Source: Armatimonadetes bacterium Uphvl-Ar2 (lineage in GTDB: Bacteria > Armatimonadota > Fimbriimonadia > Fimbriimonadales > Fimbriimonadaceae). From it: DNA of 64,000 nucleotides. This document shows positions 11,120 through 52,754 of the stretch, in pieces. Made by a program: the position numbers and the translations under genes. The notes below the pieces were generated by a model that had not been told where the DNA came from, searched no databases, and saw only the letters and a program-made list of their open reading frames with translations. Location: NCBI GenBank assembly GCA_002162095.1, contig CP021424.1:2480001-2544000 (forward strand). Direction: 5' to 3'. Every line of letters begins with the position of its first letter. The stretch's first letter is position 1.

Positions 11120-11146
11120 GAAAAATTCCCCACTTCGGCATCGTTT

Positions 11147-11180
11147 GGGCCTTTCCTTGCGTCTGTTAAAGGATAGGCCC
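11147..11180 (+). promoter_or_regulatory. Hairpin sequestering the phoU ribosome binding site
   Basis: GGGCCTTTCCTT (11147-11158) pairs with AAGGATAGGCCC (11169-11180), eleven pairs with one T-T mismatch and a ten-base loop. The 3' arm contains AAGGA, the only good Shine-Dalgarno sequence before the phoU ATG at 11183. No T-run follows, so it is not a normal terminator. A role in translational control is inferred. Confidence 0.6.
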
Positions 11181-47986: not shown

Positions 47987-49885
47987 ATGGCACGACTAGT
48001 AGGAATCGACCTCGGCACCACCAACTCGGTGGTTGCCATCATGGAAGGCGGGGAACCCCGCGTGATTGCCAGCGCCGAAGGGAATCGCACGATTCCGAGC
48101 GTCGTGGCTTTCAAGGCCAATGGTGAGCGCCTCGTCGGCGTCACGGCCAAGCGCCAAGCCGTCACCAACCCGGCGAATACCGTGGGCAGCATCAAGCGCT
48201 TTATGGGTCACCGGCTGGAGGAAGTGAAGCAAGAGACCGGCCGCGTGAGCTACAAGGTGGTGGCCGACAGCAAGGGCATGGCGGCGGTGCATATCCCGGC
48301 GGTGGACAAGAAGTTCACGCCGGAAGAGATCAGCGCGATGATCTTGCAAAAGTTGAAGGCGGACGCCGAGGCGTACCTGGGCGAGCCGGTGACCAAGGCG
48401 GTCATCACCGTCCCGGCCTACTTCAACGATAGTCAGCGCACTGCCACCAAGAATGCGGGCGAGATCGCGGGCCTGGAAGTTCTGCGCATCATTAACGAAC
48501 CGACGGCCGCCTCGCTAGCCTACGGCCTCGATAAGAAGGCCAACGAAACCATCCTGGTCTTCGACCTGGGTGGCGGTACGTTTGACGTCTCGATTCTGGA
48601 TGTGGGTGAAGGCGTGTTCGAAGTGAAGTCCACCAGCGGCGACAGCCACCTGGGTGGGGACGACTTTGACCAGAAGATCGTGGACTGGCTCGGCAACGAG
48701 TTCATGAAGGAGCACGGTATTGACCTGCGCAAGGACCAGAAGGCGCTACAGCGACTGCGCGAAGCCGCCGAAAAGGCCAAGATCGAGCTGAGCGGCCAAG
48801 TCAGCACGGACATCAACCTGCCGTTCATCACGGCGGTGGACAACGAACCGGTACACCTGGAAACCAACCTCACCCGCGCCAAGTTCGAAGACCTGTGCAG
48901 CGACCTCCTGAAGCGCATCGAAGGCCCGGTGAACCAGGCCGTCGCCGACGCCAAGGTGCCGCTCTCGAGCATTGACGAAGTGATCCTGGTGGGTGGCTCC
49001 AGCCGCATGCCGATGGTTCAAGACCTGGTGAAGCGACTGACCGGCAAGGAGCCGAACAAGAGCGTGAACCCGGACGAGGTGGTGGCCGTGGGCGCCGCGA
49101 TTCAGGCTGGCGTACTAGCTGGCGACGTGCGCGACATGGTGCTGCTGGACGTGACCCCGCTGAGCCTGGGCGTGGAAACGCAGGGCGGCATCTTCGACAA
49201 GGTCATTGACCGCAACACGACGATCCCGACCAAGCGCAGCCGCGTTTACACCACGGCGGGCGACAACCAGCCGGAAGTGACGATCCACATCCTGCAGGGT
49301 GAGCGCCCGATGGCGAAGGACAACAAGAGCCTCGGCCAGTTCAACCTCAGCGGGATTCCGCCTGCCCCGGCCCGCGTCCCGCAGATCGAGGTGACTTTCG
49401 ATATCGACGCCAACGGCATCCTGAATGTCAGCGCCAAGGAGAAGGCCAGTGGCAGCGAGCAGCGGATCACGATTACCGGTTCGGGCAGCCTCGACCGCAG
49501 TGAGATTGACCGCATGATGGCCGAGGCCGAAGCCAACGCCGAGCGGGATGCCGAACTGCGCGAACTGCAAGAAGTCCGCAACGACGCCGAGCGCCTGATT
49601 GCGAGCGTGGAGCGCACCCTGCGCGACCAAGCCGACAAGGTGGACGAGCCGACGCGCGGACGACTGGAAGAGAAGATCACGGCCCTGAAGGGTGCGCTGG
49701 AACAGAACGACCTGGAAGCCACGCGATCGGCCTTCAAGGAACTGGAAGCTGAAAGCCACGAAATGACCAAGCGGCTCTATGAGCAGAGCGGGGCCACGCC
49801 GGAAGGCGAAACCGTGGGCGCGGCGGCCGGGGCGAGCAGTGCCGGCGACGATGTCATCGACGCGGACTTCAAGGAAGACAAGTAA
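47987..49885 (+). CDS. dnaK: Chaperone DnaK (Hsp70)
   Basis: 632 residues. ATP-driven folding chaperone of the cytosol. N-terminal ATPase: [63 protein letters not shown]. The substrate-binding domain has [11 protein letters not shown], and the C-terminal helical lid ends in [11 protein letters not shown]. The length is normal. grpE and dnaJ are not next to it. A CIRCE-like operator lies just upstream, so heat-shock control by HrcA is expected. Confidence 0.98.
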
Positions 49886-49903
49886 CCTCGCTCGGCGTAA
49901 AGC

Positions 49904-49938
49904 AAAACTCCCTCCGGCCATCAGCCGGGAGGGAGTTT
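49904..49938. terminator. Bidirectional terminator between dnaK and dnaN
   Basis: AAACTCCCTCCGGC pairs with GCCGGGAGGGAGTTT (one bulged G) around CATCA; A-run on the left, TTTCTTTGTTT on the right, serving both convergent genes. Confidence 0.88.
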
Positions 49939-49961
49939 CTTTGTTTCAGCCCTAAGTGGAC

Positions 49962-51062
49962 TTAGCCGAGAGCCATCGGCATGACCACGCAGAAGCGGTC
50001 TTCACCACCTTCCACGGGCCGGATGACGGCGGAGCGGCTGGCTTCGGTCATCTCCGTGCGCACGCCTTCGCTGTCGAAGGAGCCGAGGGCGTCCATGATG
50101 AACTTGACATTGAAGGCAATATCGATGTCGCCGTTCTGGGAAATCATCAGCACTTCCTCCTTGGCCGTGCCGCGCTCGTCGCTGCGGGCACTGATCACAA
50201 CCTTGTCGCCTTGTCCGCTGAGGGTCACGCGGTTTGAGTTATCGCGGGCCAAGATCGCGGCGCGCTTGAGGTTATCAAAGAATTCCTTGCGGTCCATTGT
50301 CCACTGGCGGGTGAACTCGCTGGGAACCACGCGTTGCCAGTTGGGGTAGTTGCCATCCAAGAGTTGCGAGACGACTTGGGCGGTGCCCACGTCCACGCTC
50401 ATGCGGACCCCGTCAAAGCGAATGGTGATGTCTTCATCGCCCGGCACCGGCAGGCTGCGAATGGTTTTGAGCGCCTTTTCCGGCACGATGTAATTTAGGT
50501 CACTGCCTACGCCTTCGCGGTGCACGCGGTTTACGGCCAGGCGGTGGGTGTCGGTGGCCACCAGGGTCAGGGTGCGGCCATCGTAATTCATCAGCACGCC
50601 GGTCAGCACCCCGCGGGTGGTGTCGCTGCTCACGGCGTAGGTCACGGCATCCAGGCTGTCTTGCAGCAAGCCCATGGGCAGGCTGAGTTCGCCGGTGCTC
50701 GGTACGTCGGGGATGCCCGGGAAGAGGTCCGCCGGGGTGGCAAACAGCTTCCATTCGGATTGGCCGCCTTCGATGACCAAACTGGTACCGCTGAGCTGGA
50801 GGGTGACTTGCTCATCCGGCAAGGCACCCACCACTTCGGTCAAGAAGCGGGTCTGCACGCAAATCTCACCTTCCACCTCGATGCTGGCCGGGAGATAGGC
50901 CTGCGCCCACATTTCCCCGTCGCATCCCAGGAGCGTCAGCTTGCCATCGGCCAGCGTCATGCGAATGGACATGAGCGCCGGTTGCGTAGACCGAGCTGAG
51001 CTAGCCGACGCCGCGATGCTGAGGGCGTCGTTGAGTTCTTTGCGAGAGACCGTCGCTTTCAT
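49962..51062 (-). CDS. dnaN: DNA polymerase III beta subunit (sliding clamp)
   Basis: 366 residues in three clamp-fold domains, forming the ring that holds polymerase on DNA. Landmarks are VLTGVLMNYDGRTLTLVATDTHRLA (in domain 2), LLDGNYPNWQRVVP and the C-terminal VMPMAL that is typical of clamps. It is not beside dnaA or recF, but last in an operon behind an ECF sigma gene and a small gene, overlapping the latter by ATGA. Whether it is the only clamp gene cannot be seen here. Confidence 0.96.
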   Translation of the reverse strand: MKATVSRKELNDALSIAASASSARSTQPALMSIRMTLADGKLTLLGCDGEMWAQAYLPASIEVEGEICVQTRFLTEVVGALPDEQVTLQLSGTSLVIEGGQSEWKLFATPADLFPGIPDVPSTGELSLPMGLLQDSLDAVTYAVSSDTTRGVLTGVLMNYDGRTLTLVATDTHRLAVNRVHREGVGSDLNYIVPEKALKTIRSLPVPGDEDITIRFDGVRMSVDVGTAQVVSQLLDGNYPNWQRVVPSEFTRQWTMDRKEFFDNLKRAAILARDNSNRVTLSGQGDKVVISARSDERGTAKEEVLMISQNGDIDIAFNVKFIMDALGSFDSEGVRTEMTEASRSAVIRPVEGGEDRFCVVMPMALG

Positions 51063-51358
51063 AGTGATTGATCGTTATCCTTCGAGAGGGAATTGATACT
51101 GCCAGTAGGCAGGCTGGGGGCCTCGGTGCGGGGTTCAACTCCGCTCTGAATGAGGCGTTGCAAAATACGCTCGTACCCGGCCTCGCCCAATTGGGGTCGG
51201 TCAATCGACTGGATCGCCTCAACAGTTCGCGCAAGCGTGAGCATGTCGTGGGCCAGTTCCGGGTCTCCAAACGCTTCAGCTTCGAGTGCCTCCCTGGCTT
51301 CCGAATCCAGTTCATTGCTCGCGTAGAGGTCAATGAGCTGTCGCTGTAGTTCCGTCAT
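51059..51358 (-). CDS. Small acidic protein between sigma factor and dnaN, possible anti-sigma factor
   Basis: 99 residues, soluble, no Cys/His zinc motif and no membrane helix. The N-terminal part (LIDLYASNELDSEAREALEAEAFGDPELAHDM) has the helix pattern of anti-sigma N-terminal domains, here split as LIDLYASNELD and REALEAEAF. Position directly behind an ECF sigma gene with ATGA overlaps on both sides supports a partner role. No firm family. Confidence 0.6.
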   Translation of the reverse strand: MTELQRQLIDLYASNELDSEAREALEAEAFGDPELAHDMLTLARTVEAIQSIDRPQLGEAGYERILQRLIQSGVEPRTEAPSLPTGSINSLSKDNDQSL

Positions 51359-51942
51359 TTGATGTTCTCCTTAACTTTCGGTTGGTTTGGTTGTTTTTCT
51401 GTGAGTCGGTCGCGCAGGGCTCGTCGGCCTCGGTAGAGGCGCGATTTGAGCGCGGGCACGCTGATTTCCAGAATGTCGGCGGCTTCTTTGGCGGGCAGTT
51501 CCTCCAGATCGCAGAGAATCAGCGGCTCGCGGTATTCCACCGGGAGTTGATCCAGCGCCTGGTGAACCATCACCTTGAGGGCCGTCTTTTCTTCGGGACC
51601 TGCGTAATGCGCGTCGGAAGGCAGTTCAAGCAGTTTGTGCTGCCGCATCTTGTCCACGCAGAGGTTGCGTGCAATGCGGAACACCCACGTTTTGAACGCG
51701 CCATCGGCACGCAAATCGCGCGAATATCTCAGCACCCGCAAAAAGGTTTCGGCGGTGGCATCCTCCGCATCCGTCCGATTGCCGAGCATTCGGTAGGTAA
51801 AGCGGAAGATCTTGTCGCTATACAGTTCATATAGCCCACCAATCGCCGAGTGGTCGCCATTGGCAAGAGCCGTTAGCCACCGCTTTTCTGCGACCGAGTC
51901 ATCCGTTTGGTTTCCCGACATATCAAGACGAAGAACACCCAT
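51355..51942 (-). CDS. ECF-type RNA polymerase sigma factor
   Basis: 195 residues. Sigma region 2 (LYELYSDKIFRFTYRMLGN, DAEDATAETFLRVLR, FKTWVFRIARNLCVDKMR) and region 4 (LDQLPVEYREPLILCDLEEL, AADILEISVPALKSRLYRGRRAL) are complete. It is typical of the sigma-70 ECF group that controls stress or envelope regulons. ATG at 51942 is used; the Met of MSGNQTDD at 51921 is possible. The operon continues into a small gene and dnaN. Two hairpins occupy the leader. Confidence 0.9.
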   Translation of the reverse strand: MGVLRLDMSGNQTDDSVAEKRWLTALANGDHSAIGGLYELYSDKIFRFTYRMLGNRTDAEDATAETFLRVLRYSRDLRADGAFKTWVFRIARNLCVDKMRQHKLLELPSDAHYAGPEEKTALKVMVHQALDQLPVEYREPLILCDLEELPAKEAADILEISVPALKSRLYRGRRALRDRLTEKQPNQPKVKENIK

Positions 51943-51953
51943 GAAAGGGCGCA

Positions 51954-51991
51954 GGTAGGTTCTACCCGATAGGTCCGGGGGAAACTCCCCG
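51954..51991 (-). other. Two hairpins in the leader of the sigma-dnaN operon
   Basis: CGGGG-loop-CCCCG (51976-51991) and GGTAG-GTT-CTACC (51954-51966) are perfect five-pair hairpins in the 62 bases before the sigma gene. No T-run follows either. They could be a weak terminator for the preceding lipoprotein gene or a leader structure. Confidence 0.4.
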
Positions 51992-52004
51992 TGCCACCAA
52001 AAGC

Positions 52005-52754
52005 CTAAAGGGTGTTGAGGCGAATGAAGGTGATCTGCGGTCCCTCGGCGGGAGTGGCCGCGCCTTCGGTGCCCGAAAGGAGGGCGAGATAGATGCCGCC
52101 GGTGAGGTTCACCGTCGCGGTGCCGTACACCGACTCCCCGTCACTGCGCTTGATCTGCCACGTGTTGGTGCCCGCCGCGATGTCCAGCGTGCCGGTTTCA
52201 CCGAAGGCGAGGTCGCGGATGGCGTAGGTCGGGTTGTCACCCGGGGTCTGGAGCGTGACGTTCGGCGTGAACAAACCGGCTTGGCGGTTGAATCCTTGGA
52301 GGGCGATGATGCGCACCGTGCTACCACCCAGCGCGTTACGATCGACCGGAATCAGCACTTGGCGGAGACGCTTGATCTCTTCGCCAGCGGCAAAGTTGCG
52401 TTGCCCAATGGCGGCCACGATGGTGTGCGTGTTGCGGGCGAATTCTTGCTCTTCGGCATCGAACTGCTCGCTCAGGTCATCCGAGGAGGTGACGACATCG
52501 TAGGCTTCGTCGGCCGTCGAAATGAACTCCGTGGGCTTGAAATCGGCCATCGCGGCCCCAGGAGCCACGGCCCCGGAGAAATCTTCGTTATTGAGCAGAA
52601 GCCGCAGGTTGCCGGCGTCGCGCGAGCCGTTGATGAAGAGCACGGTCGGGTCCGGCAACAGGGACGTTGTGGTGTTGCCACCGCATCCGGCCAGCATCAT
52701 GGCGGTCAAAAGTGCCCCGGCCATGCCAAATCCCTGCGCGCGATGCTTCATCAT
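52005..52754 (-). CDS. DUF4397 lipoprotein
   Basis: 249 residues. Lipoprotein signal with lipobox LAGC (Cys about 24), then a DUF4397 beta-domain opening PTVLFINGSRDAGNLRLLLN and a second similar unit after about residue 130. DUF4397 is an uncharacterised secreted domain. Probably anchored in the envelope. It lies upstream of the sigma operon on the same strand and 8 bases after a zinc-ribbon gene, so read-through is possible. Confidence 0.8.
   Translation of the reverse strand: MMKHRAQGFGMAGALLTAMMLAGCGGNTTTSLLPDPTVLFINGSRDAGNLRLLLNNEDFSGAVAPGAAMADFKPTEFISTADEAYDVVTSSDDLSEQFDAEEQEFARNTHTIVAAIGQRNFAAGEEIKRLRQVLIPVDRNALGGSTVRIIALQGFNRQAGLFTPNVTLQTPGDNPTYAIRDLAFGETGTLDIAAGTNTWQIKRSDGESVYGTATVNLTGGIYLALLSGTEGAATPAEGPQITFIRLNTL

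Follow-up and report, generated by a model that had tools for sequence, protein, structure and literature searches.

Gene order at the locus and in relatives

The window analysed here is a stretch of 64,000 nucleotides, positions 2480001-2544000 of the single-contig, 2.63 Mb genome of a member of the Fimbriimonadaceae (Armatimonadota). On its minus strand, an ECF sigma factor gene (51355..51921) is followed by a small gene (51059..51358) and then by dnaN (49962..51062), which encodes the DNA polymerase III beta sliding clamp. The dnaN product is a full-length bacterial clamp, as judged from its three DNA_pol3_beta domains (PF00712, PF02767 and PF02768, all over the cut-off) and from its score with the curated model TIGR00663 (258 bits, cut-off 137.65). 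This dnaN is the sole copy found in the 2.63 Mb genome; the first-pass annotation had proposed to check for a second one. The usual place of dnaN is beside dnaA. Here, the single dnaA match (1011383-1012687) lies more than 1.1 Mb from dnaN, measured the shorter way round on the assumption of a circular contig. Since dnaK (47987-49885, plus strand) converges on dnaN, the clamp gene is the last gene of the operon.

The sigma gene product carries Sigma70_r2 (at 37-103, E 2e-16) and Sigma70_r4_2 (at 125-176, E 9e-16) joined by a short linker, and also scores over the cut-off of TIGR02937, as expected for an ECF sigma factor. Its start had been placed at 51942. However, this ATG is an ACG in the close relative G001 and sits within the spacer of the putative promoter described below, and the alignment of the relatives sets the common start (MSGNQ, codon 8) at 51921. 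The sigma gene is closely preceded, on its own strand, by a lipoprotein-like gene (52005-52754) with a sub-threshold match to DUF4397.

The order ECF sigma gene, small gene, dnaN is conserved. Among 113 Fimbriimonadia genomes, dnaN was found in 102 and a strong match to the small gene in 83, which belong to the families labelled f1 and f5; in 83/83 of these genomes, the small gene immediately precedes dnaN, with both genes on one strand. Note that this count omits the dnaN rows of families f2 and f3, the second piece of a split dnaN (G021 and G069) and a dnaN piece at a contig edge (G100). An extra match to the small gene, G021:C46, is found at a contig end. The sigma gene was directly checked in 42 loci, after dropping eight duplicates (L001, L032, L035, L036, L062, L063, L065 and L066), and adjoins the small gene in all of them. 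In families f2 and f3, dnaN occurs in other surroundings, with neither the sigma gene nor the small gene. The f1 genomes with a dnaN match and no strong match to the small gene were G030, G092, G080, G086 and G100. Two of these, G030 and G092, are reduced genomes of 1.5 Mb from one f1 genus that have kept dnaN; in G030, no sigma match adjoins it.

A one-base deletion in the window copy of the small gene

In the first-pass annotation, the three genes were described as overlapping by ATGA at both junctions. The overlap of the sigma and small genes (51355-51358) is present in the letters and is a feature of the group, the same -4 offset being found in 39/42 loci (the exceptions are L025, L038 and L043). 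The overlap of the small gene and dnaN (51059-51062) is likewise present in the letters, but it did not survive comparison with G001, whose clamp is 99% identical. At the minus-strand site 51110..51124, the window has a run of five C where G001 has six: the window reads GAGGCCCCCAG and G001 reads GAGGCCCCCCAG. The small gene of G001 ends in ...QYQFPLEG* (PQPAYWQYQFPLEG*), 12 nt ahead of the dnaN start. Judged from this alignment, the second overlap is the product of a one-base deletion and no conserved feature. Similarly, the 99 residues ascribed to the small protein are a frameshifted length, with the C-terminus out of frame; the proteins of the relatives have 92-108 aa.

Two further genes of the source assembly, dnaE and another DnaE-like gene, are each split over two frames (G000:C1 2168857-2171933 and 578265-581284), and for this reason the frameshift in the window more probably stems from a sequencing or assembly error than from a mutation.

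The small protein is related to anti-sigma factors

An acidic partner of the sigma factor was implied in the first-pass annotation, which proposed a test of binding between the two proteins, and the family relationships of the small protein agree with this. Its match to the NCBIfam anti-sigma model NF052375 is weak for the window protein (E 0.014); at E <= 0.05, 19/32 members of the small family match this model, the best at 1.8e-5. Further evidence came from more distant homologues, longer ORFs that the model of the small family detects weakly (1e-3 to 1e-7). In 11/11 fetched loci, such an ORF (165 to 572 aa) has an ECF sigma gene as its neighbour on the same strand; of these ORFs, 7/7 scanned against NF052375 gave matches with E values of 1e-9 to 1e-12, which is under the full-length cut-off of that model. 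Thus, the N-terminal homology to anti-sigma factors is carried by the homologues, with a weak match of the family itself, and the position beside a cognate ECF sigma gene is seen both in the 42 loci and in the 11/11 distant homologues. On these grounds of homology and gene neighbourhood, we regard the small protein as a homologue of anti-sigma factors.

The standard zinc-finger anti-sigma (ZAS) type was rejected for this protein, as the HxxxCxxC motif is absent from the f1 and f5 rows. The AlphaFold model of the small protein, built from 5 sequences, is poor (pLDDT 57) and has four helices and a disordered tail. When the small family was searched by sequence against the PDB, the only matches were unconvincing ones to coiled-coil and repeat proteins.

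A clamp-binding motif in the C-terminal tail

Near the C-terminus, 61/63 distinct small proteins carry a short motif of the form Q-[YLFMW]-x-[LFI]-P-[LIMFW], QYHLQM or QYRLF, the typical tail being QYxLP[ILM]. Within this tail, Q and P never vary and L hardly does, unlike the variable linker ahead of it; in two proteins the P form has been replaced by QYRLF, which is the second known version of the motif. The two proteins that lack the motif are a contig-edge fragment and the frameshifted window copy, in which the motif is not in frame. Note that, as the letters and the motif census indicate, the window retains DNA for QYQFPL in the frame of the relative (51084..51101, minus strand).

The consensus for clamp binding is QLxLF or QLxLxL (PMC4564189). 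The motif QLSLPL of Hda is required for clamp binding (PMC3836487) and is described as a tight clamp binder (PMC12309361), and CrfC has QLALP (PMC6374313). The Fimbriimonadia tail resembles these two proteins in having Q-x-x-L-P-[LIM] in a terminal region and in a proposed regulatory use of the clamp; unlike them, it is borne by an anti-sigma-like protein and not by a DnaA-like regulator (Hda) or a dynamin-like protein (CrfC). In addition, a canonical clamp motif of the form Q-x-x-[LIM]-F, mostly QDSLF-like, is present in DnaE of 30/30 genomes examined, and therefore the clamps of these genomes very probably use the same, canonical motif code. The tail of the small protein, disordered in the low-confidence model, thus matches a beta-clamp-binding motif in its sequence, and we infer that it would bind DnaN through this motif.

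The tail outside the Fimbriimonadia

A phylum-wide search of 291 genomes gave matches at E <= 1e-6 in 96, of which 13 lie outside the class; all 13 were fetched. The four genomes of family f10 all have dnaN after the small gene (4/4), with a GNAT-like gene in between in G131, and the tails read QFTLPI or QYQLPI. A sigma match lies upstream in 3/4, with none within the fetched stretch of G121. In family f11 (one genome), the small gene also precedes dnaN and its tail has no clear motif. The remaining families, f12 and f13 (eight genomes: L366, L368, L370-L374 and L376), have the sigma gene paired with a small gene of the zinc type, and no dnaN was seen within the stretches fetched from these eight genomes. 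HxxxCxxC is kept in the f12 and f13 homologues and in one f10 homologue. The tails of f12 and f13 carry QW-x-LP[FL] in 7/8 and QRTLRL in L372. Since the tail is kept in families in which dnaN is not adjacent, it is independent of a neighbouring dnaN.

A putative promoter element shared with dnaE

A two-box element, GCNNC-N17-CGTC, precedes the sigma start. In the window it reads GCGCC-N17-CGTCT (51926..51952, minus strand), with the sigma ATG 4 nt downstream. CGTC is known as an ECF -10 box, and the conservation of the element at fixed spacing marks it as a putative autoregulatory ECF promoter. CGTC is found near the start in 31/34 f1 and 6/8 f5 rows and the element is missing before the sigma gene in 5/42 loci; among the rows with CGTC, G stands at -22 in 29/31 (f1) and 6/6 (f5), and C at -18 in 31/31 and 6/6. 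A sigma-70-type consensus scan of 49800-52100, with other promoter types outside its scope, found no promoter, which speaks weakly against a constitutive promoter of dnaN within the small gene. Hence neither of the two findings named in the first-pass annotation as contrary to it, a separate dnaN promoter and a gene order lost among relatives, was encountered.

Genome-wide, the pattern is modestly more frequent than its reversed control (30 vs 18 in G000; 37/16, 30/13, 36/24 and 33/27 in a scan of four genomes), and matches within a single genome were set aside as being close to the chance count. One such occurrence in the window, at 11138-11164, lies 19 nt before a PhoU-like gene (named by eye). 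All matches of G000, G008 and G011 were examined, and in G019 only the 7 with loci. Among the resulting 127 matching loci, there were matches just upstream of the starts of dnaE, smc, mutL and a recurrent LTD-like gene. The product of the latter (L219:1549-1917; relatives L334-L363) has about 120 aa, begins MIRIVGVQ... and matches Pfam LTD at E 0.013, under the cut-off.

The recurrence of the element was then counted across genomes with and without the sigma system, using a relaxed pattern at a distance of no more than 110 nt from the start and omitting G001, which is near-identical to G000. As background, other ORF starts carried the element in 10/298 cases in genomes with the system and in 0/39 in those without. 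The element precedes dnaE in 15/21 genomes with the system (p 7e-15 against the 10/298 background) and in 0/9 without it (p 3.5e-4), p values which, like the others given here, overstate the significance because related genomes are not fully independent. For the LTD-like gene, the figures are 20/27 with the system (p 5e-19) and 0/2 without; this gene was absent from 7/7 f2 genomes searched, and the same genomes lack the sigma system. Without the discovery genomes, the p values are 7e-14 for dnaE, 4e-17 for the LTD-like gene and 8e-8 for smc, subject to the same overstatement. The element before smc occurs in 11/25 genomes with the system (4/4 in f5, 7/21 in f1) and in 1/4 without, so that smc is possibly a target in f5 and in some f1 genomes and no general one. 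In contrast to these genes, mutL was rejected as a conserved target (3/21 with the system, 0/9 without). A stricter matrix, made from the dnaN-operon promoters only, placed 9/16 f1 and 2/5 f5 dnaE genes above the 3% background score, and no dnaE among the same 16 f1 and 5 f5 genes above the 1% background score.

A proposed sigma switch under control of the clamp

Outside a few model systems, it is to our knowledge still largely unexplained how bacteria adjust the production of replisome components to demand. Taking together the conserved gene order, the anti-sigma homology, the conserved motif and the recurrent promoter element, we think it probable, if far from certain, that the operon forms a switch in which the replication clamp controls an ECF sigma factor by way of an anti-sigma factor, with replicase genes as the targets. 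The first-pass annotation had offered two interpretations, a clamp level tied to a stress regulon and a sigma factor that became linked to replication; the order, the clamp motif on an anti-sigma-like protein and the element before dnaE favour the second, and the stress regulon found no such support.

In the proposed mechanism, the ECF sigma factor would act at GCNNC-N17-CGTC promoters to transcribe its own operon (sigma, anti-sigma and dnaN), dnaE and the LTD-like gene. The small protein would be a soluble anti-sigma factor whose N-terminal anti-sigma domain holds the sigma factor, and its flexible C-terminal tail with QYxLP[ILM], like QLSLPL of Hda, would dock in the DnaN cleft. If the tail docks there, the occupancy of the cleft would in turn set the amount of free sigma. 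Spare, unengaged clamp would bind the anti-sigma protein and favour the sigma-off state; when the clamps are taken by forks and polymerases, sigma would be freed and more clamp and Pol III would be made. The docking of the tail on DnaN, the binding of the small protein to sigma, the use of the element by sigma and the sign of control are the predicted parts of this circuit. The sequence is compatible with either sign, and we regard the homeostatic (negative) sign as likelier than a positive one like that of T4; a negative sign would give stable homeostasis and a positive one a coupling of the T4 late type.

The genome thus appears to encode a physical link: the docking motif of the clamp sits on the protein expected to restrain the sigma factor that would transcribe dnaN and dnaE. 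This arrangement suggests that the cell monitors its replication machinery and adjusts the activity of its replication genes accordingly. We know of no earlier sigma factor whose anti-sigma factor senses a replication protein. If the proposal is true, this would be the first such sigma factor, and a T4-like device for replication-coupled transcription would be placed in a bacterial phylum. A literature search limited to titles and the openings of abstracts turned up no paper that connects an ECF sigma factor and its anti-sigma partner with the clamp or with dnaN/dnaE.

Comparison with known systems and alternative readings

In its working, the nearest analogue appears to be the late transcription of phage T4, in which gp55 is the sigma factor, gp33 is a small protein with a C-terminal clamp motif that suppresses basal transcription without the clamp, and gp45 is the clamp (PMC7892883, PMC9690074). 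The two systems are alike, as far as these accounts of T4 go, in joining a sigma-family factor, a small partner with a C-terminal clamp motif on a linker and a clamp tied to transcription. These parallel parts allow the opposite sign to the homeostat: without the clamp the small protein would restrain sigma, and a DNA-loaded clamp on the tail would release or activate the sigma-polymerase, so that the replicase genes are transcribed only during replication. The tail motif kept without an adjacent dnaN fits this reading, since it makes the circuit more than an autoregulation of the operon. Against it, clamp-driven expression of dnaN would be a positive feedback, and an anti-sigma domain normally bars sigma from core polymerase; gp33 sits on the polymerase and is not known to be an anti-sigma domain protein. 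Moreover, T4 is a phage system in which gp55 itself has a clamp motif, and none was seen at the sigma C-termini of the 42 loci. The single operon with the clamp and the common element before dnaE are in turn specific to the system described here. We consider this positive sign rather unlikely. The wider idea of a cellular counterpart of T4 late transcription, in which DNA-loaded clamps would switch a dedicated ECF sigma factor via a clamp-docking anti-sigma protein and so couple transcription of dnaN, dnaE and, in some lineages, probably smc to the state of replication, is possible and can be held only tentatively. Because the sigma factor lacks a motif of the gp55 type, we do not file the system as a member of the T4 class; the likeness is drawn from working and not from homology.

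By family, the system belongs with the ECF sigma/anti-sigma pairs, to which it would add a new input. Pairs of this kind with an anti-sigma domain include the RseA, RsiW and ChrR types, which the Fimbriimonadia genes resemble in their overlap within one operon, the likely autoregulatory promoter and the homologous N-terminal domain. Unlike these types, the small protein, of about 95 aa, has no room for a sensor domain, lacks the zinc motif in f1 and f5, and has a clamp-binding tail and likely targets that include dnaN and dnaE. The pair could still be an ordinary one, with dnaN downstream for expression only and another role for the tail: sigma/anti-sigma operons are common, the 11/11 distant homologues are such pairs without a clamp context, and the clamp role of the tail is a prediction. 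We hold this to be improbable, as the tail fits the clamp motif in each of its two known versions, its conservation extends across families with or without an adjacent dnaN, and the promoter element is common to dnaE.

It is similarly doubtful that the small protein is mainly a clamp inhibitor under ECF control, a brake on replication comparable to SocB of Caulobacter, with its anti-sigma domain serving autoregulation only. The motif does resemble the tight binder QLSLPL (PMC12309361), and the toxin SocB also binds DnaN via the usual clamp motif (PMC9690074). The part of the latter source that deals with SocB mentions no anti-sigma domain or sigma partner for it. Here, however, the gene adjoins dnaN and its product would be made together with the clamp, and the sigma element also precedes dnaE, which fits a supply of replicase and not its inhibition.

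Finally, we give little weight to GCNNC-N17-CGTC being a leader hairpin or an operator and no promoter: a 6-pair hairpin at 51935-51952 of the window overlaps the putative sigma promoter at its -35 box and spacer, and a TATAMT-, TAAAMT- or TACAAT-like box lies 20-50 nt upstream in 25/31 f1 rows, but terminator-like sites in the region number 2 vs 2.1 expected, the spacing of the two short boxes is fixed, and the element recurs before dnaE and the LTD-like gene.
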